Shown: piece by piece, positions 7,812 through 18,294 of the stretch
Layout of the letters: each line of letters begins with the position of its first letter
Position numbering within the stretch: position 1 is the stretch's first letter
From: Candidatus Eisenbacteria bacterium
GTDB taxonomy: Bacteria > Orphanbacterota > Orphanbacteria > Orphanbacterales > Orphanbacteraceae
Length of the DNA stretch: 64,000 bases
Assembly (NCBI GenBank): GCA_016930695.1
Contig: JAFGGD010000046.1
Span: 62,001-126,000, forward strand
Direction of reading: 5' to 3'
Translations under genes and position numbers: made by a program
Notes under the pieces: model-generated
The model's database searches: none
Seen by the model: the letters and a program-made list of their open reading frames with translations, nothing else
Told to the model about the DNA's origin: nothing

Positions 7812-8153
7812 CGGTTCCTCGGGTCCTCTCGATCCTTCGTGGAAACGGTCCGTCCGGGGAGGGGATGGAAATCCCGGCCATCATACCGCGGCGCGCCGGT
7901 TCGCGCAACGGAGCGACGCAAGGTTTTCGCCGCAAATCGCCAGAGCCGGTTTTCCGGCGCGCACGACTCGACCTTTATCCTCTCTTGACCGGAATGTGCT
8001 TGGCGTGTATCCTATTCATGTTCTTTTCTTAGCTGGGATACGCGCGCGGTCGCACTATCAAAAGAATCACTTCCCGTTCCGCCGTCCACTGTCCCGCTGC
8101 GCGGTCTTTTGACCCGATTTCATCACCATGACAACAGGGTCGAGGTGGCTAAC
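7812..8153. other. intergenic region upstream of dGTPase-like gene
   Basis: The 342-bp gap between the divergent MATE and dGTPase-like genes shifts from GC-rich near the MATE gene to distinctly AT-richer from about 7975, matching the gene downstream. It contains the promoter entered at 7985-8013. A TTG at 8109 would extend the downstream gene by 15 codons but has no ribosome site. Confidence 0.6.
7985..8013 (+). promoter_or_regulatory. predicted sigma70-type promoter for dGTPase-like gene
   Basis: TTGACC (7985-7990), a 17-nt spacer and TATCCT (8008-8013) lie about 140 nt upstream of the ATG at 8154. This is among the closest matches to the sigma70 consensus in the window. Confidence 0.65.
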
Positions 8154-10694
8154 ATGTGCGTGTACAGTCAGTTCTGGCTAAAATGGGAAAAGAAAAACTT
8201 GGCCCCATACGCGGTGCACAGCGATCACCCCTGGTACACCAATCGTAACATCCGAGACACCGTCGAGTATGCACTGGACCGTCATGGCACGCGCAGCCGG
8301 TACCGAACGGCTTTCGAAATCGACAAGGATCGTGTCGCCAAAAGCCAGGCTTTCCGGCGAATGGAATACAAAACCCAGGTTTTTGTAACCCATGAAGGCG
8401 ACAACTATCGTACCCGACTCACTCACTCTATTGAAGTCGCGGAAACGGCCCGCCATATCGCCCGCGGTTTGCGTTTGAATGAGCATCTGGTTGAGGCAAT
8501 CGCTCTCGGCCATGATCTCGGTCACGCTCCTTATGGCCACGTGGCGGAAAAGGCGATTAACGATTGGATCCGTTCTCTCGGCGATGCGTATCGTCACGGA
8601 TACTATTTTTGTCACAATCGCCAATCCGTCGAAATTGTCGAGCACCTTGAGCCCGGCTATGATTGGGATGATCGGATGTTTCGAGAGGGCTTCGGGCAGG
8701 GGTTGAATCTTACAACGGGGGTCCGCGAGGGCCTCCTTGTTCATTCCCGAAACGGTTATCGAGGGCCCGCCCATGAAAATGCGGTTTTCGACAAGTCCTT
8801 TGAAACAGCAATTCGAAAATTAGCTCGAAACCACCGAGAGAAGAATCTGTTTTTCCCCGGCTCCCTGGAAGCCCAGGTCGTATGCATCGCAGACAGGCTC
8901 GCCCAGAGGATCCACGATCTTGAAGACGGCTTCCGCTCGGGAATACTGAAGAAGGAGCACATTCGTCGCCTCTTAAAGGGGTTTTTGGATAAACTGGAGC
9001 CAACGATCATTGACCGTAGGCGATCCGCACCGAAAACCCAGCCGGATCAAACCTCTCTGATCCACGAAGATCCACTCGGCCGGGGGGATCATCTCATACA
9101 CCGTACTCTTCACACGAAGGTCTCCAGGCTTTTCTTGGACCAGATCGTGACAATGGTGGAATACCACGGCGAGGAGAAAGACTCCATCGGCAAGTATATG
9201 TACACGTACAAAAGGAAACCTGGAGCGGAGGGGAACCCGTCGGAAGGTGCGGAACCGAAGCGTGAGGATCAAAACGAAGAGAAAATACGCCAGGAGAGAA
9301 TCGACGAAATAAATAGAAAGCTGATGGACGATGCGAAATACAGGGGACTCTTTCTCAAGGCCGCCATGGTCGCTTTCCTGCTTCATATGTGGAGGGACGA
9401 AGAATACCTGACTTGGCAAATGAGCGAGGAAGATCAACGCTGGGCACGCAGCCGAGTCCTGAAATACTTAAAACTCCTCCTTCGAATTATCGGCGATGAA
9501 GGAGGAAGCACCCACCGAACGACGGGCACGGAGTATCCTCCTTCATACCACATCATCGCTTTTCTAAGGGGTGTCATGCTCGCGAACGCCATCGAGCACT
9601 CTTTTTGGAATATCCACTCCCTTCTCGATCCGAGCTTTCGCCTCCACTACGACACGTACCGAGTAGAGAAGAATCAACACGTACCGGAGACGCTTTCTCC
9701 GGAAGACGAAGCAAACCACTTCTATTACATGGTGTTCGTGATCGTCGACGGGATCACTCACCACGATGCTACTTTCGAGCCGTATAACAAAGACCGGGAT
9801 AAAGAACGGCGTTTCTGCTTTCGTTTCCAAACGGAAAAACAGATGACGAACTTTATTCGCCGTTACTATCCGATCATTCTGGAAAGCAATGGAAGGGCGC
9901 TTGTCGACGGCTCCGTCGAGGAACGTCTTTATTCCAAGCCGGAGCGGATCTGCTGGCTTAATAAGTCGTCGTCTCCTCAAGAGACGGAATGGGTCGAATT
10001 CGACATGGGGAGCGCCGGGCAACAAGTCCCCCCGATTCCCCTGCAGAACGTTAAGATCTGTTTTACGGGCTACCGCGATCTCTGCCCGGGCATCGACGAG
10101 CCCCCCTGCAAAATCGGTCGAGGTCATGCCCAGGTCTGCGACAAGAACACGGATCAATGCCCCTTCTACTCGAGTCGAGTCCGATATCCGGATGTGGAGC
10201 GTCTGATCGATTTACACGATCATGTCCACATGCTCGACAGAGAGTTAAAAGGTTTGATCAAGAAGCGGATCCATTCGAGTTCCCGTGTCGCCCGGATGAA
10301 TCACATGGGAGAAAAGGTTATACGATATCTGCTGAATATGTATCTTGAGAATCCTCGGACCATGCATGACCGCGTCTGGTCGAGACTTCGAGCCTATCAG
10401 GAAATGCCGAACGTTCATCCTATCGTGAAACGCTACATCGACAAATCGACGGTAGAACGGGAAACCGACACGATCCCTCAAGACGTACTCATGTCGCTTC
10501 TTGAAGATCCCACAGCCGAAATGGAAGGTTACATTGAGGAAAAATGGCGAACGAGCAACCGTTATGCTCTTGTTCGCCGAATTATTGAGCACGTAACCGG
10601 AATGACCGATCGTTTCATAGCCAACGAGTACAATCGCGCGAACCAGTGCGGGAGGGAAGTAGAACTCCAGGACGAAACCTACTTCATCTCCTGA
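8154..10694 (+). CDS. long dGTPase-like HD-domain protein
   Basis: An 846-residue protein whose N-terminal ~300 residues match deoxyguanosine triphosphate triphosphohydrolases. H91 (RLTHSIEV), H120-D121 (ALGHDLGHAPYGH), the FCHNRQSVEIVEH segment and SLEAQVVCIADRLAQRIHDLEDG give the full HD metal and active-site pattern. Known relatives are usually 350-500 residues; this one carries some 450 extra C-terminal residues. These include five cysteines at ~636, 644, 652, 662 and 669 (a possible metal or Fe-S site) and a basic helical end. Base composition is close to half G+C, well below its neighbours, and more AT-ending codons are used, suggesting horizontal acquisition. The ATG at 8154 has GAGGTGG 5 nt upstream. 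Hydrolysis of a dNTP is inferred from the intact motifs; a phage-defence role is possible but unproven. Confidence 0.85.
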   Translation: MCVYSQFWLKWEKKNLAPYAVHSDHPWYTNRNIRDTVEYALDRHGTRSRYRTAFEIDKDRVAKSQAFRRMEYKTQVFVTHEGDNYRTRLTHSIEVAETARHIARGLRLNEHLVEAIALGHDLGHAPYGHVAEKAINDWIRSLGDAYRHGYYFCHNRQSVEIVEHLEPGYDWDDRMFREGFGQGLNLTTGVREGLLVHSRNGYRGPAHENAVFDKSFETAIRKLARNHREKNLFFPGSLEAQVVCIADRLAQRIHDLEDGFRSGILKKEHIRRLLKGFLDKLEPTIIDRRRSAPKTQPDQTSLIHEDPLGRGDHLIHRTLHTKVSRLFLDQIVTMVEYHGEEKDSIGKYMYTYKRKPGAEGNPSEGAEPKREDQNEEKIRQERIDEINRKLMDDAKYRGLFLKAAMVAFLLHMWRDEEYLTWQMSEEDQRWARSRVLKYLKLLLRIIGDEGGSTHRTTGTEYPPSYHIIAFLRGVMLANAIEHSFWNIHSLLDPSFRLHYDTYRVEKNQHVPETLSPEDEANHFYYMVFVIVDGITHHDATFEPYNKDRDKERRFCFRFQTEKQMTNFIRRYYPIILESNGRALVDGSVEERLYSKPERICWLNKSSSPQETEWVEFDMGSAGQQVPPIPLQNVKICFTGYRDLCPGIDEPPCKIGRGHAQVCDKNTDQCPFYSSRVRYPDVERLIDLHDHVHMLDRELKGLIKKRIHSSSRVARMNHMGEKVIRYLLNMYLENPRTMHDRVWSRLRAYQEMPNVHPIVKRYIDKSTVERETDTIPQDVLMSLLEDPTAEMEGYIEEKWRTSNRYALVRRIIEHVTGMTDRFIANEYNRANQCGREVELQDETYFIS

Positions 10695-10804: not shown

Positions 10805-11314
10805 TTGGACCTTTTCGAGGCGATTCACGATCGAAGGAGCATCCGCGAGTACGAGGAGCGACCGGTGTCGGAGGAGACGATGGAAGCGCTGCTCCGGGCG
10901 GCGATGGCCGCGCCGAGCGCGGGGAACGCTCGCCCCTGGGCGTTCCTGACTCTCACGGACCGGAAGCTGTTGGACGCGATCCCGGAAATACACCCCCACG
11001 CGAAGATGGCCGCCCGCGCCCCGGCCGCGGTGCTGGTCTGCGCGGAACCCGGCCGCGAGAAGTACCCGGGCAACTGGCCTCAGGACTGCGCGGCGGCGAC
11101 GCAGAACCTTCTCCTCGCCGCCCACGCCTCCGGCCTCGGCGCGGTCTGGTGCGGCGTCTGGCCGAACCGGGAGAGGATGGAAAATTTCCGGCGGGTCTTC
11201 GCGCTCCCCGAAGGGATCGAGCCGCACGCCCTGGTCTGCCTGGGCTATCGGGCGGAGACGAAAACGCGCGCCGACCGCTACGAGCCGGAGCGCGTCCACC
11301 GGAACGGTTGGTAG
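10805..11314 (+). CDS. nitroreductase family protein
   Basis: A 169-residue flavin (FMN)-dependent oxidoreductase of the nitroreductase fold. It shows the N-terminal RRSIREYEERPV motif, then AAMAAPSAGNARPWAF at ~34-49 (FMN phosphate contact region), QDCAAATQNLLLAAHASGLGAVWCGVW at ~97-123, and ALVCLGYRAE near the end. The start is TTG at 10805, supported by AAGGAGG seven nt upstream; no better ATG exists. Physiological substrates of such short nitroreductases are usually unknown (quinones, nitroaromatics, flavins). It lies 110 nt after the dGTPase-like gene but has the high-G+C composition typical of the window, so it is not part of the same transferred segment. Confidence 0.88.
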   Translation: MDLFEAIHDRRSIREYEERPVSEETMEALLRAAMAAPSAGNARPWAFLTLTDRKLLDAIPEIHPHAKMAARAPAAVLVCAEPGREKYPGNWPQDCAAATQNLLLAAHASGLGAVWCGVWPNRERMENFRRVFALPEGIEPHALVCLGYRAETKTRADRYEPERVHRNGW

Positions 11315-11381: not shown

Positions 11382-13016
11382 TCATCCTTTCATCAGCTTC
11401 CGCCCCCAGGCGGCGAGGTTCCTCAGGCGGGCGATGATCCGTCCTTCGTCGCACCCCACCTCCAGATCCTCCTTCGAAAGGGAGGCGATCTTCTCGAGGA
11501 AGGCGCGGTTCTGCTCGTTGCGCGCGGCGACGAGACGGGCGATCTCGGCGGCCACCTCCTCGTGCCGCGCGAGGAGCTTCGCGAAAGCCTCCCTCGGAAT
11601 CTCGATCAGCTCCGCCTCCTCCTTGAAGAGACCGGTGGCGGTCCGAGGCATGCCGGTGAAGAGGGACATCTCACCGATAATCTCCCCCGGCCCGGTACGG
11701 AAGGCGAAACGGTGTTCCTCGCCCCCCTCACGGTAATCGATGAAGCCGTCCACGGCGCCGCGGGCGACGACGTAACACGCCTCGCCCGCGTCCCCCTGTC
11801 GAAAGAGGACCTCCCCCTTGGTGTAGCGGACGGCGCGGCAGCCTCGGGCGAATTCCCCGATCGCTTCTTCCGGCAGGAGCCTCTCCGGCGTGCCGCCCTC
11901 CACGGCGGGCGGGCGGGAGAGGAAGGCGCTCGAAGCGAGGACCCGCGCCGCCTCCTCCGTCGACTCCTCCGGCGGCGGGAGGCGGCGCTGGTTGTAAACC
12001 ACCGCCATGAAATCGTTCAGTAGCTGATCGCTCATGGGGAAAGGGATCTCGATGCCGCGACGCTTGAACTTGTACCAGATCAGTCGAGCGACTTCACCGC
12101 GGATCGGGTTCTTCCGCCAGTAGTTGCGCGACCAAAAATAAAGCCGGTAGTTGATCCCGAAGTCGAGATAATCAACGACATACGCGACCGGCGGCGGCGT
12201 GTCGGCCGTGAGAGACGCCTCCCGGGCCGCCTCTTCCAGCGCTGCGATGACATCCGCCGGCGCGTCGGAATAGCTCGCCCCCACTTCGATATTGTGGCGG
12301 TGGAGCTGGTCCGGCTTGCTGTAGTTGACGATCGTCTCCGAGGCGAGCACGCTGTTCGGGATACACACGTAGTCGTCGTCCCGCGTGCGGATCACCGTCT
12401 CCCGCCAGTTGGTGCGCACCACCTTCCCTTCCTTGTCGCCGATCCCGATCAGGTTTCCCGTCTCCACGGTGCGCACCAGGTTCAGCGAGATGCCGGCGAG
12501 GAGATTGCCGAGCACTCCCTGCAGCGCGAGGCCGATCACCATGGAGAGAATCGCCGACGTGGCGAGCAGGGGAGTGATATTCACACCCAAAATGGTTCGG
12601 AGAACCGCGAGCGCGGCGACCAGGTAGAGAACGCCGAGGAGGATCCGCCGGAGAAGGGTCGGCACGGGAAAGGGGATTTCCCGGTTTCTCTGATGGACAT
12701 GATAGATGACGCCGTCCAACAGTCGAACGAGGCAAAAGACGATCCAGAAGATGTTCCAGGCGAGGACGCGGTCCGAGAAGACCGCCCCTTCGCGGAAACC
12801 CCAGGGGCTCCGGAGCAGCGTGGCGACCAGCGTGAGAAGGAGGACCGACGCCGGGAAGGAGACGCGGAGAAGGAGGGCATGCAGGGGCCGCCGTCGAAAT
12901 CCGTATCGCGCGCCGACGTGGAGCGCGCCGGCGAGCGACAAAATCGCCAGAAACCGGAGCGCCTGCGTCCATGTAGGCACCGCTTGGGTCAATGCATCCG
13001 CGACCTGCGTGTCCAA
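11382..13016 (-). CDS. MscS-type channel with C-terminal cyclic-nucleotide-binding domain
   Basis: A 544-residue inner-membrane protein. About four hydrophobic segments (residues ~20-38, 50-68, 85-105, 125-145) precede the MscS pore helix and beta domain at ~150-340 (SMVIGLALQGVLGNLLAG, then GNLIGIGDKEGKVVRTNWRET). Residues ~375-500 form a cNMP-binding domain with an intact phosphate cassette: G448-E449 and R458-T459 in GEMSLFTGMPRTAT. This is the architecture of bacterial cyclic-nucleotide-gated MscS relatives. The TTG start at 13016 is backed by AAGGAGG. It begins 15 nt after the MBL gene and shares an operon with a nucleotide cyclase, so gating by the cyclase product is the natural inference. 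Confidence 0.9.
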   Translation of the reverse strand: MDTQVADALTQAVPTWTQALRFLAILSLAGALHVGARYGFRRRPLHALLLRVSFPASVLLLTLVATLLRSPWGFREGAVFSDRVLAWNIFWIVFCLVRLLDGVIYHVHQRNREIPFPVPTLLRRILLGVLYLVAALAVLRTILGVNITPLLATSAILSMVIGLALQGVLGNLLAGISLNLVRTVETGNLIGIGDKEGKVVRTNWRETVIRTRDDDYVCIPNSVLASETIVNYSKPDQLHRHNIEVGASYSDAPADVIAALEEAAREASLTADTPPPVAYVVDYLDFGINYRLYFWSRNYWRKNPIRGEVARLIWYKFKRRGIEIPFPMSDQLLNDFMAVVYNQRRLPPPEESTEEAARVLASSAFLSRPPAVEGGTPERLLPEEAIGEFARGCRAVRYTKGEVLFRQGDAGEACYVVARGAVDGFIDYREGGEEHRFAFRTGPGEIIGEMSLFTGMPRTATGLFKEEAELIEIPREAFAKLLARHEEVAAEIARLVAARNEQNRAFLEKIASLSKEDLEVGCDEGRIIARLRNLAAWGRKLMKG

Positions 13017-13031
13017 TCCGATCCCTCCTTA

Positions 13032-13859
13032 TTACGATCGAGCGACGGGGATCGTCATCCCCTCCCGCGCCGCCTCCGCCCCGGCGAACCGCCGGCGCGC
13101 CTCCTGAACGAGCCGGTCCATGCCGCCGTCTTCCCTTTCCGGATTGTGATGGACCAGAACGAGCCGCCGCGCGCCCGCCCCCTCGGCGAGGCGCGCCCCC
13201 GCTTCCCACGTGCTGTGCCCCCAGCCTCGGTGGGCTTCATACTCGAAGGCGTCGTACTGCGCATCATACAGGATCACGCCCGCGCCGGAACAGAGCGCCA
13301 GAAGCCCCTCGTCGATCCCCGATTCCGGATGCTCGGTGTCGGTGGCGAGGACGGCGCTCCCCACCGGCCCGTCCAAGCGATAGGCGAGGGCTCCGCCCGG
13401 ATGCCGGAGAGGCGCGTGGGTGATCGCCACGTCTTCGATCTCGAGTCGTTCCGGCAATGGGTGAAAGGTGATCCGCGCCTCCATGCGGTCCCAGCCGACG
13501 GGATAGTACGGCGGTGAAGCGATTCTCTCCAGCGCCCGCCTTCCGTCCTCCATCCGCTCAGCGGGGAGATAAACGCTCACCCGAAATTCCTCGCGATAAA
13601 GCGGCGCGAAGGCGGGGAGGCCGACGACGTGGTCGAGATGGAAATGGGTGAAGACCCAATCCACCCGGCGCGGAGCCTCGGGGGACCCGAGCAGCCGGGC
13701 GCCGAAGGGGACGACGCCTGTCCCCGCGTCGATGAGGAGCGTCGTCTCCCGGAGGGGGAGCGCGAGGGAGGTGGTGTGGCCGCCGTACTTCGCGAAGGCC
13801 GCGCCCGGCGTGGGATTGCTCCCGCGCGCGCCGAGCACGGTCAGCGACCCGCGTCTCAT
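13032..13859 (-). CDS. MBL-fold metallohydrolase (possible phosphodiesterase)
   Basis: A 275-residue cytosolic metallo-beta-lactamase-fold enzyme with a complete two-metal site: H72, H74, D76 and H77 (HFHLDH), H153 (LRHPGG), D174 (LATDTEH) and H237/H238 (LVHHNP). The N-terminus (LTVLGARGSNPTPG..YGGHTTSL) is typical of the RNase Z / PhnP / cyclic-nucleotide-phosphodiesterase branch, which cleaves phosphodiester bonds. The ATG at 13859 overlaps the stop of the upstream cyclase gene as ATGA, indicating translational coupling; an ATG six codons upstream is an alternative. Position between a cyclase and a cNMP-gated channel suggests turnover of the second messenger. This is inference: the substrate is not readable from sequence. 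Confidence 0.85.
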   Translation of the reverse strand: MRRGSLTVLGARGSNPTPGAAFAKYGGHTTSLALPLRETTLLIDAGTGVVPFGARLLGSPEAPRRVDWVFTHFHLDHVVGLPAFAPLYREEFRVSVYLPAERMEDGRRALERIASPPYYPVGWDRMEARITFHPLPERLEIEDVAITHAPLRHPGGALAYRLDGPVGSAVLATDTEHPESGIDEGLLALCSGAGVILYDAQYDAFEYEAHRGWGHSTWEAGARLAEGAGARRLVLVHHNPEREDGGMDRLVQEARRRFAGAEAAREGMTIPVARS

Positions 13860-15958
13860 TTGCTCGTCATTTCCCATACACCGTCCCAACCGGGCGGCAA
13901 GGCGCCCCCGGAGAGCGCGTCGATCCTGTCGACATAGGCGCCGGCGACCGGGTCGTCGGCGAGGGCGGCGAAGATTTCTCCGGCCCGCGCGAGGTCCCCC
14001 GCTTCGAAGGCGCGCAGCCCTTCCTCGAAGGAGCGGTCCCCCTCGCGCCACCAGGGAAAGAGGTAAGGCCCTCCGGCCGGGCCCGCCGCCTGGAATACAC
14101 GCGTCGGTTCGCGCCTCCCCACCACGCGCACCCGCCCCACTTCACGCCCCGCCGCCGCTCCCTCCGCCGCGTTCCAGGTCGCCTCGCTCACCAGAATCGG
14201 CGAGCGAAACACCTTGCCGAGCCCCTCGAGCCGGGAGGCGAGGTTCGCCGCGTCGCCGATCACGGAGTAATCGAACCGCTCGCGGGAGCCCATGTTCCCC
14301 ACCACAACCGACCCGGTGTGAATGCCGATCCGCATGCAAAGCGGCCTTCCCGCGTCCCGCTCCAGCTCCGGGTTGATCTCATCGAGCCGGCGGAGCGCGC
14401 CGATCCCGGCGCGGAGGGCGCGCGCCGCGTGGTCCGGTTGGTCGAGAGGCGCGTTCCAGAAGGCGATGATCGCGTCCCCCTCGTACTTGTCCACCGTCCC
14501 CCCCTCCGCCTGGATCAGATCGGTCATCTCCGAAAGATAACGATTGAGGAGCGCCGTCAGCCGCTCCGGATCGAGTCCCTCCGAGAGAGAGGTGAAGCCG
14601 GCCAGGTCGGAGAAGAAGAGGGTCAGTTCCTTCCGTTCGCCCCCCAGGGCGAGGCGGTCCGGGTTCTCGAGGATCTTCTCGATCACTTGTGGGCTCAAGT
14701 AATGGCGAAAGGCGTGTTTCAGGAAACGGCGGCGGCGGCCCTCGACGGCGTACTGCGCGGTCTGCGCGGCGAGAAAAGCGAGCAGCACGGCGAGCACGGG
14801 GGAAACGATCGGCACCCACCGGCCCAAACGGAAGAAGAGAAGGGGGGCGCCGGCGAGCACCGCGACGAAGAGCGGCAGGAGAAGGGCGCCCCGCCAGGGG
14901 CTCCGCGCGCGCCCGACGAGGAAGCCGAGCAGCGCCGCCGCGAGAACGCAACGGAGCGCTTCGATCCAGCGGGGCGTCCGGAGGAGGAAGTCTCCGGCGA
15001 GAAGGTTGTCCAGGACCGTGGCGTGCAACTCCACGCCGGGATAGACCCGGCTCATCGGCGTGGGTCGAAGGTCCAGGAGCCCCGGCGCGCTCGATCCGAT
15101 GAAGACGATCCGCCCCCGGAGCAGCTCTTTCGGGAGCGAGATCTCCCCCCCCTCCCGTTCGCGCACCCACGACTGGATCGCGCTCGCGATGGAATAGGAA
15201 GGGATCGTTCCCGCCGGACCACGGAAGCGGACCAGCATGCGCCCCTCGCCGTCCAGGGGGACGGTCCGATCGCCGAGGAAAAGACGGCCGCCGTCCGCGC
15301 GGACCGGCGTTCCCTCCGTCACGGACCAGACGGCGAAGGGGAGGGCGAGCGCCTCCGCTCCGCCGCCGGAACGGAAAACCGCCGGTACGCCGCGAAAAAC
15401 GCCGTCCCGGTCGGGAAGAAAGAGCACGTTGCCGAGGCCCGCCGCTCCGTCGCGGATCGATTCGACCGGAAGCGTGGCCGAGAGAAAGGGGACGGCGGGA
15501 ACGGTTCCATCCCCCTCCGGCGCCGGCCGGAAACGCGCGGGAGGCGGCGCACCCTCGTCGCCGGCGTGGGCGAGGAAGGGGAGGATCACCCCGCCGCCGG
15601 CTACCGAGGCTCCCAGTTCGGCGTCGTCCCCCTCGCCGTAGACCGACGGCTCGGTGAAGAGCAGGTCGAAGACGACCGCACGCGCCTCCGCGTCGCGGCA
15701 GTACTCGATCACCGGGGCGTAGAGCGACCGGGGCCACGGCCACGGAAGGTCCTCCTCCGCCGCCATGTGGTCGAGGCTCTTCTGATCCACGAGGAGGATC
15801 GCGATCCGCTCCGCGACCCGCCCCGGCCCGGCGAGCCGCGCGAGCCGCCAGTCCAGCGTTTTCCACTCGAGCGTGTCGAGCGCCCCGGCGAGGGAGAGCA
15901 GAAACGCGACGAGACCCGCCGCCGCCCCGATCATCGCGCCGAGGCCGATCCGCCTCAT
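13856..15958 (-). CDS. CHASE2-domain class III nucleotide cyclase
   Basis: A 700-residue membrane enzyme. One N-terminal helix (~5-27) is followed by a periplasmic CHASE2 sensor at ~30-325 (WPWPRSLYAPVIE, VVFDLLFTEPS, GRIVFIGSSAPG), then three helices (~332-402) and a cytosolic class III cyclase domain at ~440-585. Catalytic residues are intact: metal-binding D451 and D495, base-selecting K491 with S565, and transition-state N572 and R576 (NLASR). The Lys plus Ser/Thr pairing resembles CyaC-type adenylate cyclases, so cAMP is the likely product. A short helical tail (~640-685) looks TPR-like. It lies 29 nt downstream of the M48 protease gene and overlaps the MBL gene. Confidence 0.92.
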   Translation of the reverse strand: MRRIGLGAMIGAAAGLVAFLLSLAGALDTLEWKTLDWRLARLAGPGRVAERIAILLVDQKSLDHMAAEEDLPWPWPRSLYAPVIEYCRDAEARAVVFDLLFTEPSVYGEGDDAELGASVAGGGVILPFLAHAGDEGAPPPARFRPAPEGDGTVPAVPFLSATLPVESIRDGAAGLGNVLFLPDRDGVFRGVPAVFRSGGGAEALALPFAVWSVTEGTPVRADGGRLFLGDRTVPLDGEGRMLVRFRGPAGTIPSYSIASAIQSWVREREGGEISLPKELLRGRIVFIGSSAPGLLDLRPTPMSRVYPGVELHATVLDNLLAGDFLLRTPRWIEALRCVLAAALLGFLVGRARSPWRGALLLPLFVAVLAGAPLLFFRLGRWVPIVSPVLAVLLAFLAAQTAQYAVEGRRRRFLKHAFRHYLSPQVIEKILENPDRLALGGERKELTLFFSDLAGFTSLSEGLDPERLTALLNRYLSEMTDLIQAEGGTVDKYEGDAIIAFWNAPLDQPDHAARALRAGIGALRRLDEINPELERDAGRPLCMRIGIHTGSVVVGNMGSRERFDYSVIGDAANLASRLEGLGKVFRSPILVSEATWNAAEGAAAGREVGRVRVVGRREPTRVFQAAGPAGGPYLFPWWREGDRSFEEGLRAFEAGDLARAGEIFAALADDPVAGAYVDRIDALSGGALPPGWDGVWEMTSK

Positions 15959-15987
15959 CCATCTCCTCCGCGGCGCGGCGCTCGCGC

Positions 15988-16908
15988 CTATCCGATCGAC
16001 CGGGTGCTCCGCTTGAAGCGCTCCGTCCGCGCCGACGGGTCGGTCCCCTCGGCCAAGCGGCTCTTCACGACGGGCTCCACGTCCCGGATCCGGTCCTTCG
16101 CCGGCGGGTGTGTGGCGAACATACCGGCGCCGCCGGAGCCGGATTCATCCATCCGCTCCAGGAACCGGGTAATGCCGTCGGCGCGATAACCGACGGCGGA
16201 GGCGAACTCCACCGCCATGCGGTCCGCCTCTTTCTCCTGACTCCTGCTGTAACCACGCTCCACCAAGGTCCGCACCACGTCCCCCACGGCGCCGTCGAAC
16301 AGGTCGGTGAGCTTCACCAACTCCTCCTTGTTCCAGGCGGTCCCCGCCTCGCGACCGAGGATGGCGAAGGCGTCGATGAGACGGCTCTTCTGGATCGCCG
16401 CGAGGCCGTGGCGGCCGGCGACGTGACCCACCTCGTGGGCGAGCACGCAGGCGAGCGCGTCCTCGTCCGGGAGGATGGCGAGCATCCCCCGCGTGATCAG
16501 GATCGTTCCCCCCGGCGCGGCGAAGGCGTTCACCTCGTCCACGTCGAGCACGGCGAAATGCCAGCCGCCGTAGATCTCGGGGCGACTCGAGTAGAGCGCC
16601 ACCGCTCGGCCGACACGGTTCACGTAGCCGGTCACCTCGTCGTTCTTATAGAGGGGATAACGGCCGAGGAGCGTCGCCGCGACGGCGCGGCCGATGTAAT
16701 ACTCCTCCTCCTCGGTCAGTTCCTCGAAGCTCTTCCGGAACGCCTCGCCGGTCCGGTCGATCGCTCCCTTCTGGTCGTCGGAGATGTAACCCTGATTCGC
16801 CGCGATGCTCGTGCCGATCTTGCCGAGATCGGTGGCGGTGCAACCGGCGATCAGCAACGCGGCCGCCCCGACCACCGCGAGAAATCCGATGAAGACCGTC
16901 CTTCTCAT
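15988..16908 (-). CDS. M48 family metalloprotease, lipoprotein
   Basis: A 306-residue zinc protease anchored as a lipoprotein: a signal peptide ends in LLIAGC, with C23 as the lipidated residue. The zinc site HEVGH is at ~145-149 and the third ligand Glu sits in SQEKEADRMAVEF further on, as in BepA/LoiP-type periplasmic M48 peptidases that handle outer-membrane proteins. FAAPGGTILITRGML precedes the zinc helix as usual for the family. The ATG at 16908 follows GGAGGGGG and overlaps the stop of the SH3 gene (ATGA). Co-transcription with the CHASE2 cyclase is implied by the 29-nt spacing. Confidence 0.9.
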   Translation of the reverse strand: MRRTVFIGFLAVVGAAALLIAGCTATDLGKIGTSIAANQGYISDDQKGAIDRTGEAFRKSFEELTEEEEYYIGRAVAATLLGRYPLYKNDEVTGYVNRVGRAVALYSSRPEIYGGWHFAVLDVDEVNAFAAPGGTILITRGMLAILPDEDALACVLAHEVGHVAGRHGLAAIQKSRLIDAFAILGREAGTAWNKEELVKLTDLFDGAVGDVVRTLVERGYSRSQEKEADRMAVEFASAVGYRADGITRFLERMDESGSGGAGMFATHPPAKDRIRDVEPVVKSRLAEGTDPSARTERFKRSTRSIG

Positions 16909-17387
16909 GACCGCCCCCTCCAATCACCCAGCTTCCCCTGCTCCAGGAATTTGCGGAGTTCCTCGTCCGAAACTCGGATGCGGTCGACCCGGTCCACGGC
17001 TTCGTAGTCCAGCCCCTTGCCGCTCTTCTTGTACTCCGCCTCCACCTCCTCGGTGAAGCCCTTGCTCGCCAGGCTCACCTCGTGGTCCGAGGCGTTCCGA
17101 TCCACCGTGCCGCCTCCTCCGGAGAGGGCGATCTTCTTGGTGGTGACGGCGCTCTCGTGAACCCAACCGGTCGCGCCTCCGGCGCTCACGCGGATCCACT
17201 CACCCTGCCGGCCCGTTTCCTCCAGCTTCGCGCCGATCTCCACGGTCTTCACCGCGCCCGCCCAAAACTTAGGCTCCTTGCGAAGCTTGGTGCTCTTCAC
17301 CTGCACCGTCCACTGCGTTCCCGCGTAGAGGACGGCCGCCGCCAGAAGCATGCCGAGCGTCCCCAACGCCTTCGTTTTCCATCGCAA
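16905..17387 (-). CDS. exported SH3-domain protein
   Basis: A 160-residue protein with an N-terminal hydrophobic segment (~8-24) that works as a signal peptide or anchor. It is followed by a bacterial SH3-type domain at ~25-80, with VKSTKLRKEPKFWAGAVKTV, then GEWIRVSAGGATGWVHESAV, the usual cell-wall or peptide-binding fold. The C-terminal half is charged and helical. The TTG at 17387 with GGGGGG upstream gives a sensible signal peptide; the next in-frame ATG would cut into the hydrophobic core. It is the first gene of the five-gene minus-strand block. Confidence 0.72.
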   Translation of the reverse strand: MRWKTKALGTLGMLLAAAVLYAGTQWTVQVKSTKLRKEPKFWAGAVKTVEIGAKLEETGRQGEWIRVSAGGATGWVHESAVTTKKIALSGGGGTVDRNASDHEVSLASKGFTEEVEAEYKKSGKGLDYEAVDRVDRIRVSDEELRKFLEQGKLGDWRGRS

Positions 17388-17547
17388 GTCGATCCCCCCT
17401 TCCCGGCCTTTCCGAGCCCGCGCCGGATCCTGTGTCGTTTCGCACGATCCTATCACCGCCGAACCCGCGCGCCAAGCGGAGCATAGGCCTTGCGGCGCCC
17501 CGCCGCGAGCGTTAGGATGGAGATTTCCCGGGCCGGAGGTAAGAAGC

Positions 17548-18294
17548 ATGGGCCTTCTGGAAGAGGCGCGGGAGCGCCTGCGAGCGCTCTTGCGGGAGAG
17601 CGGATTCGACGGCGGCGCGCCGGTCGAGGTGACGCCGCTTCACCCGGACGACGCCATCGGCGCGCGCGCGGACGAAAACTTCGTCCTGAAAAAGGGGAAG
17701 GAGCGCGTAATCGAGGCGCGGATCGGCGGCGCCCGCGGCCAAGCCTTCACCGACCGCCCCACCTCTTGGAGGGGAACGCCGGCGGAGGCTCTCCGCCTCG
17801 ACCTCTCACGGATCGAAGATCGGGCGGTCTTCACGGCGGTGTTGAACGGCGCCCTCCGAATGCTCGGCCGGGTGGAGGGGACGGTTCACTGCCGGGACGA
17901 GGACCCCACTCGCTGCGGACCTCTGCTGGCGGAGGAACTGGAACGACGCTTCGGGGCGGTTCGGATCGGCATGGTGGGATTGCAGCCGGCCATTCTCCGG
18001 GGGCTCGTGGAGCGCTTCGGGGCGGAGCGCGTGCGCGTCGTCGACCGGAATCCGGACAACATCGGCGCCGAGAGTTCCGGCGTTCCCGTCTGGGACGGGG
18101 ACAGGGAGATGGAGCGCCTCGTCGATTCCTCCGACATCGGGCTGATCACCGGGTCGAGCGTGGTGAACGGGACGGCGGATGAAATCATCCGCCTCTTCCG
18201 GGACGCGGGGAAACCCTACCTCCTCTTCGGCAACACCGTCGCCGGCGTCGCGGCCCTCCTCGACCTCCCGCGCATCTGCCCCCTGAGCGGGTAG
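17548..18294 (+). CDS. DUF364 / putative heavy-metal-chelation domain protein
   Basis: A 248-residue soluble protein. The N-terminal part contains GQAFTDRPTSWRGTPAE, a signature of the DUF4213/DUF364 pair. The C-terminal half is Rossmann-like, with RIGMVGLQPAILRGL, VRVVDRNPDNIG, then GLITGSSVVNGTADEIIR and YLLFGNTVAG. Members are annotated as putative heavy-metal chelators, but the reaction is not established. GGAGGT lies 8 nt upstream of the ATG. The gene is 65 nt upstream of cysteine synthase on the same strand, so co-transcription is possible. Confidence 0.78.
   Translation: MGLLEEARERLRALLRESGFDGGAPVEVTPLHPDDAIGARADENFVLKKGKERVIEARIGGARGQAFTDRPTSWRGTPAEALRLDLSRIEDRAVFTAVLNGALRMLGRVEGTVHCRDEDPTRCGPLLAEELERRFGAVRIGMVGLQPAILRGLVERFGAERVRVVDRNPDNIGAESSGVPVWDGDREMERLVDSSDIGLITGSSVVNGTADEIIRLFRDAGKPYLLFGNTVAGVAALLDLPRICPLSG

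Follow-up and report, generated by a model that had tools for sequence, protein, structure and literature searches.

Channels of the MscS superfamily that respond to cyclic nucleotides have been reported since 2010, according to references listed in PMC4560390. The literature found on these bacterial cyclic-nucleotide-gated (bCNG) channels does not say which cyclase, cue or eraser serves them. Here, a block of five genes (positions 11382–17387) from a Candidatus Eisenbacteria bacterium is described, lying in a window of 64 kb (the whole stretch of DNA that was analysed) and supplying a candidate for each of these roles. Its channel resembles bCNG channels in its domain order, with the MscS beta and C-terminal domains ahead of a cyclic-nucleotide-binding domain (CNBD) whose cassette is intact; unlike them, it shares an operon with a cyclase, a probable phosphodiesterase and envelope proteins. 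Each of the five parts is a member of a known family, and their combination appears to be undescribed in the open-licence full-text literature. On re-reading, all five genes lie on the minus strand, in the order SH3, M48, CHASE2 cyclase, metallo-beta-lactamase (MBL) and MscS-CNBD:

16905..17387, minus strand: SH3 (SH3_3) exported protein, 160 aa, TTG start; first gene of the operon
15988..16908, minus strand: M48 metalloprotease (Pfam Peptidase_M48), predicted lipoprotein, 306 aa
13856..15958, minus strand: CHASE2–class III nucleotide cyclase (Pfam CHASE2 and Guanylate_cyc), 700 aa
13032..13859, minus strand: MBL-fold hydrolase (Lactamase_B_2), probable cyclic-nucleotide phosphodiesterase, 275 aa
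11382..13016, minus strand: MscS-family channel with C-terminal CNBD, 544 aa, TTG start
17388..17547, no strand: intergenic region between the operon and a divergent DUF364 gene; presumed promoter site

The genes are closely packed. Overlaps of 4 nt (ATGA) join SH3 to M48 (16905–16908) and the cyclase to the MBL gene (13856–13859), and the remaining gaps measure 29 nt between M48 and cyclase (15959–15987) and 15 nt between MBL and channel (13017–13031). An earlier note on this DNA had given the same gene set, direction, overlaps and gap sizes, all of which proved exact; the active-site residues that it named also stand where it placed them and are invariant in alignments of the module. The coupling of the genes is supported by sequence and comparative evidence, namely their content, their order, and their conserved catalytic, metal-binding and cassette residues. 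On balance, we consider it probable, judging from sequence, that the five genes form one operon and encode a self-contained cyclic AMP (cAMP) circuit whose output is an ion channel. In such a circuit, the CHASE2 domain, on the periplasmic side, would be tuned by conditions in the envelope, where the M48 lipoprotein and the SH3 protein would act. On the cytoplasmic side, the cyclase would then convert ATP to cAMP, and binding of cAMP to the C-terminal domain of the channel would alter its opening or its tension threshold. Finally, the MBL protein would hydrolyse cAMP and reset the circuit. We infer a single transcript, cAMP as the product, phosphodiesterase activity of the MBL protein, gating of the channel by the ligand, the direction of that gating, and an input role for the envelope proteins.

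Class III adenylate cyclases with a CHASE2 domain are a described type, and the window protein matches them in its CHASE2 and catalytic domains and in its complete active site; it differs in belonging to an SH3–M48-linked group, here with a probable eraser and a channel adjoining. The two domains score 173.3 bits (CHASE2) and 76.0 bits (Guanylate_cyc), both over the curated Pfam cut-offs by which all Pfam matches were judged and which the best model of each of the five proteins passes. The class III features comprise the metal-binding Asp pair D451/D495, the transition-state residues N572 and R576, and the adenine-type K491 and S565. Five of these (D451, K491, D495, N572 and R576) are identical in the window cyclase and in all 30 tabulated linked relatives; at position 565, the window cyclase has Ser where all 30 have Thr. 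Lys with Thr or Ser is the ATP-type pair of class III cyclases and points to ATP as the substrate rather than CTP or UTP. The phylum was sampled with seven genomes, all of one family and spread over five genera, and exactly one class III cyclase occurs in each of the three genomes that carry the module, with none in the other four. No second class III cyclase was found in the window genome, where other cyclase classes were not searched. Elsewhere in this genome, a CYTH-domain protein of about 175 aa (G000:C31:91742-92224) is a possible class IV cyclase or triphosphatase. Cyclases of Pelagibacter and Methylophilales phages (KC465899.1 12047-13714; MZ577095-MZ577098) cover 81% of the window CHASE2 cyclase at 26–29% identity.

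The channel passes the cut-offs of three Pfam models: MS_channel_2nd (57.1 bits), MS_channel_3rd (36.9 bits) and cNMP_binding (73.0 bits). Its phosphate-binding cassette reads GEMSLFTGMPRTA and includes E449, R458 and T459; the set G448, E449, R458, T459 and A460 is intact and conserved in orthologues, and every module channel that is readable carries GERTA or GERSA. CNBD proteins as such are present in six of the seven genomes of the phylum, and the Gly-Glu...Arg-Thr-Ala cassette is confined to the module channels. In the non-module CNBD proteins with a readable segment, the cassette Glu and Arg are replaced (a fragment from a non-module genome, L274, is unreadable). Besides the channel, the window genome encodes two CNBD proteins, which have degenerate cassettes and the look of CRP/FNR-type regulators. 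Within this small phylum, cyclase and intact receptor are thus found together, in a single operon; the three module genomes are related and do not represent three independent events.

Conservation of the block is not limited to the window genome. All five genes also occur, in the same order and at 46–65% identity, in a further two genera of the phylum (L035 and L036). The flanks differ there: neither the nitroreductase gene nor the DUF364 and cysK genes of the window were found beside the block. Searches of the four non-module genomes found no class III cyclase, no SH3 relative and nothing closely related to the channel. Outside the phylum, a scan of genome contigs with the single channel protein gave no match, and species genomes were scanned with an alignment of channels. 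The alignment-based scan detected all five genes in identical order in three Aminicenantes loci (L103, L104 and L113) and a partial block at contig ends in two more (L102 and L105), with proteins 34–46% identical to those of the window. A survey of 199 genomes from the phylum of these Aminicenantes records, which we take to be Acidobacteriota in GTDB, added four loci with unchanged order (L200, L202, L203 and L204). The channel gene of L113 is split, with unknown bases (NN) at the break. Spacing between the genes is operon-like nearly everywhere among the module loci. The block is beyond chance, since it persists as a unit in a different phylum and, between other flanking genes, in two further genera. 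The earlier note had made its reading depend on conserved gene order in relatives, and the order is indeed kept in other genera and phyla.

A second survey, in which an SH3 profile was run against 386 mostly unrelated genomes, gave a wider view of the module and its parts. One locus (L220) contains all five genes in a different order, SH3–M48–MscS–cyclase–MBL. Its channel gene (L220:9737-11232) is split by a frame change inside the CNBD, which is probably a sequencing error. The SH3 and M48 genes adjoin almost always, and 10 of the 14 stronger SH3 matches outside the phylum (L220–L222 and L227–L233) have a CHASE2 cyclase no more than about 4 kb away. Many bacterial families contain SH3–M48–CHASE2 cyclase units with neither MBL nor channel nearby (L156–L158, L221, L227–L230 and L233), an arrangement that no paper in the open-licence literature was found to describe. 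In four Acidobacteriota loci (L209, L213, L215 and L219), a CHASE2 cyclase, an M48 protease and an MscS-CNBD channel form a tight row in which no SH3 or MBL gene was detected. Other lineages place CHASE2 cyclases, or an open reading frame with a cyclase catalytic domain, beside separate CNBD proteins (L037, L040, L041, L051 and L104:12114-16507).

Phylogenies were built for the cyclases and the channels. In the cyclase tree, a quick tree with Shimodaira–Hasegawa-like approximate likelihood ratio (SH-aLRT) support only, nearly all SH3/M48-linked cyclases cluster, and those of the five-gene set form a subclade. The channel tree unites twelve module channels in a clade with 100/100 support, including L102 and L201, which lie on contig fragments; the L220 channel joins this clade weakly, and the channels of the cyclase–M48–MscS row form a separate clade. 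Independent recruitment of a channel by the latter group is suggested by the tree and is not claimed, as a single origin was not rejected (approximately unbiased test, p 0.095 and 0.066).

These distributions bear on an alternative in which an ancestral SH3–M48–CHASE2 cyclase module for envelope maintenance signals to whichever receptor is available, with the MBL protein and the channel as optional additions. The channel would then be mainly an osmotic safety valve, with a CNBD that does no more than fine-tune gating by tension. The nesting of the five-gene set among SH3/M48-linked cyclases fits such a history, as do the many units that lack both optional genes, and, according to a title cited in PMC4560390, one bCNG channel is a unique member gating in response to tension. 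However, the three module genomes of the phylum yielded no second CNBD receptor with an intact cassette (cNMP-binding GAF domains were not examined), which makes the channel the obvious output, and adjacency of cyclase and channel recurs in the second, cyclase–M48–MscS arrangement. We regard this alternative as rather unlikely.

The envelope half of the proposed circuit consists of the SH3 and M48 proteins. The SH3 protein scores 31.9 bits against Pfam SH3_3 (cut-off 27) and has a hydrophobic N-terminal segment, as read from the sequence, and a conserved C-terminal segment; its orthologues in the aligned full modules are 34–52% identical, and its structure is predicted at too low a confidence to be of use, with a predicted local distance difference test (pLDDT) score of 41. 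The M48 protein (Peptidase_M48, 103.9 bits) carries a lipobox, LIAGC, and an HExxH motif. Its lipobox Cys28, together with H163/E164/H167, E230 and D234 (311-aa numbering), is invariant in six orthologues. These M48 residues come from the comparison of the six orthologues; the M48 row of the wider residue table is out of register, with positions numbered on the 311-aa form and letters from the 306-aa form, and did not contribute. Among described periplasmic M48 proteases, BepA and LoiP share the M48 domain with it, and lipoprotein export is predicted as in LoiP. The window protein differs from them in its length of 306 aa, its scores far under both cut-offs and its operon linkage to a cyclase; against the M48_BAM_BepA model it reaches 78.6 bits, under a cut-off of 570, in a match that ends at 253/483. 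The wide occurrence of the SH3–M48–cyclase core suggests that both proteins are part of the sensory half of the circuit; they could also be an output of it, its regulated partners or housekeeping proteins.

The part of the eraser falls to the MBL-fold protein, which scores 69.1 bits against Lactamase_B_2 (PF12706), over the cut-off, and carries the motif THFHLDH, with HxHxDH at H72/H74/D76/H77. The metal ligands H72, H74, D76, H77, H153, D174 and H237 are invariant in all 12 tabulated module copies. Atypical class II phosphodiesterases (YhfI, CpdA and Rv1339) have the signature [T/S]HxHxDH and are close to RNase Z (PMC9293780); among them, YhfI prefers cAMP and cGMP over cCMP and cUMP (PMC9117128). 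The window protein is similar to this group (Rv1339, CpdA of Corynebacterium and YhfI) and to Apyc1 in its PF12706 domain, its [T/S]HxHxDH motif and its fold, and differs in its low sequence similarity. It scores 57.9 bits against NF041851, the NCBI cyclic-nucleotide phosphodiesterase model (cut-off 400), and 66.0 bits against the RNase Z model TIGR02651 (cut-off 292.95). In its AlphaFold model (pLDDT 87.9), the fold matches RNase Z best, followed by YhfI (6kns, E ~1e-12), PhnP and, lower, Apyc1 (7u2s, E ~1e-9). Neither the PF12706 fold nor the motif discriminates, because the fold is common to RNase Z. Relatives of the protein are fused to receiver domains (L246–L249) and in one case to CNBD and GGDEF domains, which points to a signalling context. 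In that case, L240:4845-7484, a single 879-aa open reading frame encodes MBL and receiver-like domains together with the CNBD and GGDEF domains. A role as the housekeeping RNase Z was considered and is less likely, as a better-scoring candidate, likewise under the cut-off, is encoded elsewhere in the genome (C20). Together, the YhfI and Apyc1 fold matches, the motif, the signalling fusions and the separate RNase Z candidate make cyclic-nucleotide phosphodiesterase activity likely for the modelled protein.

Several observations weigh against a cAMP circuit of this kind. For the hydrolase, the RNase Z model scores slightly above the cyclic-nucleotide phosphodiesterase model, with both far under their cut-offs; RNase Z also supplies its best matches in the PDB, by sequence and by fold, and its relatives are widespread away from cyclases. 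For the channel, Thr459 of the cassette would fit either cGMP or cAMP, and a neighbouring cyclase is missing for most of the MscS-CNBD channels that lie outside the module. For the cyclase, the CYTH-domain protein could be a second cyclase, of class IV. The RNase Z matches support an alternative in which the MBL protein is an RNase Z-like enzyme or another phosphodiesterase with a different substrate, and the circuit comprises only a writer and a reader. The cyclase–M48–MscS variant, with no detectable MBL gene, agrees with this. Against it stand the RNase Z candidate encoded elsewhere in the genome, the proximity of atypical class II phosphodiesterases themselves to RNase Z (PMC9293780), and the presence of the MBL gene in every five-gene locus long enough to judge. 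A circuit lacking an eraser is doubtful in our view.

The earlier note had proposed that one operon holds the writer, a possible eraser and the reader of one messenger, together with envelope proteins. This proposal is partly supported, the support coming from comparative tests of gene order, gene content, conserved residues, the single cyclase and receptor, and the fold family of the MBL protein. A stricter form of the cAMP circuit would be a private pathway with one writer, one eraser and one reader, built on the SH3–M48–CHASE2 core, in which the state of the envelope gates the channel directly and no transcription factor takes part; to this form we assign somewhat less than even probability.

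The earlier note had also raised an immune function resembling Pycsar. In such a system, phage would trigger the cyclase, and the cyclic nucleotide produced would open a lethal channel in the membrane. The block shares with Pycsar the architecture of a cyclase and a membrane CNBD protein, and the PADLOC models PycC and PycTIR match the shared domains; these matches, however, span only generic cyclase and CNBD domains. Among nine proteins in and around the block that were compared with PADLOC, no TIR or PycTM protein was found, and an HD-domain phosphohydrolase gave the sole other match to a defence model. CHASE2, M48 and SH3 proteins are not known as components of Pycsar systems, nor is a self-encoded eraser. 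The block, in contrast, has a CHASE2 sensor, M48 and SH3 proteins and its own probable eraser, is kept as one unit across phyla, and encodes a cyclase whose K491 and Ser/Thr565 point to ATP, not to CTP or UTP. With no Pycsar effector type and no defence context, an immune role is not supported and is highly improbable.

In its stricter, private form, the cAMP circuit would provide MscS-type cyclic-nucleotide channels with a cyclase of their own and with a cue from physiology. Searches of open-licence full texts found no paper joining CHASE2 with M48 and SH3 or with mechanosensitive channels, and none joining a mechanosensitive channel, a CNBD and a cyclase. Conservation of the block in distant phyla suggests that these cells use cAMP to regulate an ion channel in direct response to envelope state. 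The broadly distributed SH3–M48–CHASE2 unit, in turn, ties envelope proteins to second-messenger signalling. As the operon supplies the candidates and no further class III cyclase or intact CNBD receptor was detected in the genome, the purpose of such channels can be tested directly with five genes.

The surroundings of the block complete the description of the locus. The operon is bounded at both ends, because the flanking genes run on the opposite strand. Beyond the SH3 gene lie the DUF364 gene and a cysteine synthase gene (cysK), both on the plus strand, and beyond the channel gene lies the following:

10805-11314, plus strand: nitroreductase

Provided that the DUF364 gene starts near 17548, the interval 17388..17547 is the sole substantial non-coding gap upstream of the block. 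A consensus scan of this interval found no sigma-70-like site, consensus scans for promoters and terminators gave nothing convincing, and an Rfam search of the window returned no match. The HD-domain phosphohydrolase, at 8109-10694 of the window, is unusually long at 861 aa; it matches Pfam HD and HD_assoc and scores 205 bits against the PADLOC dGTPase model.

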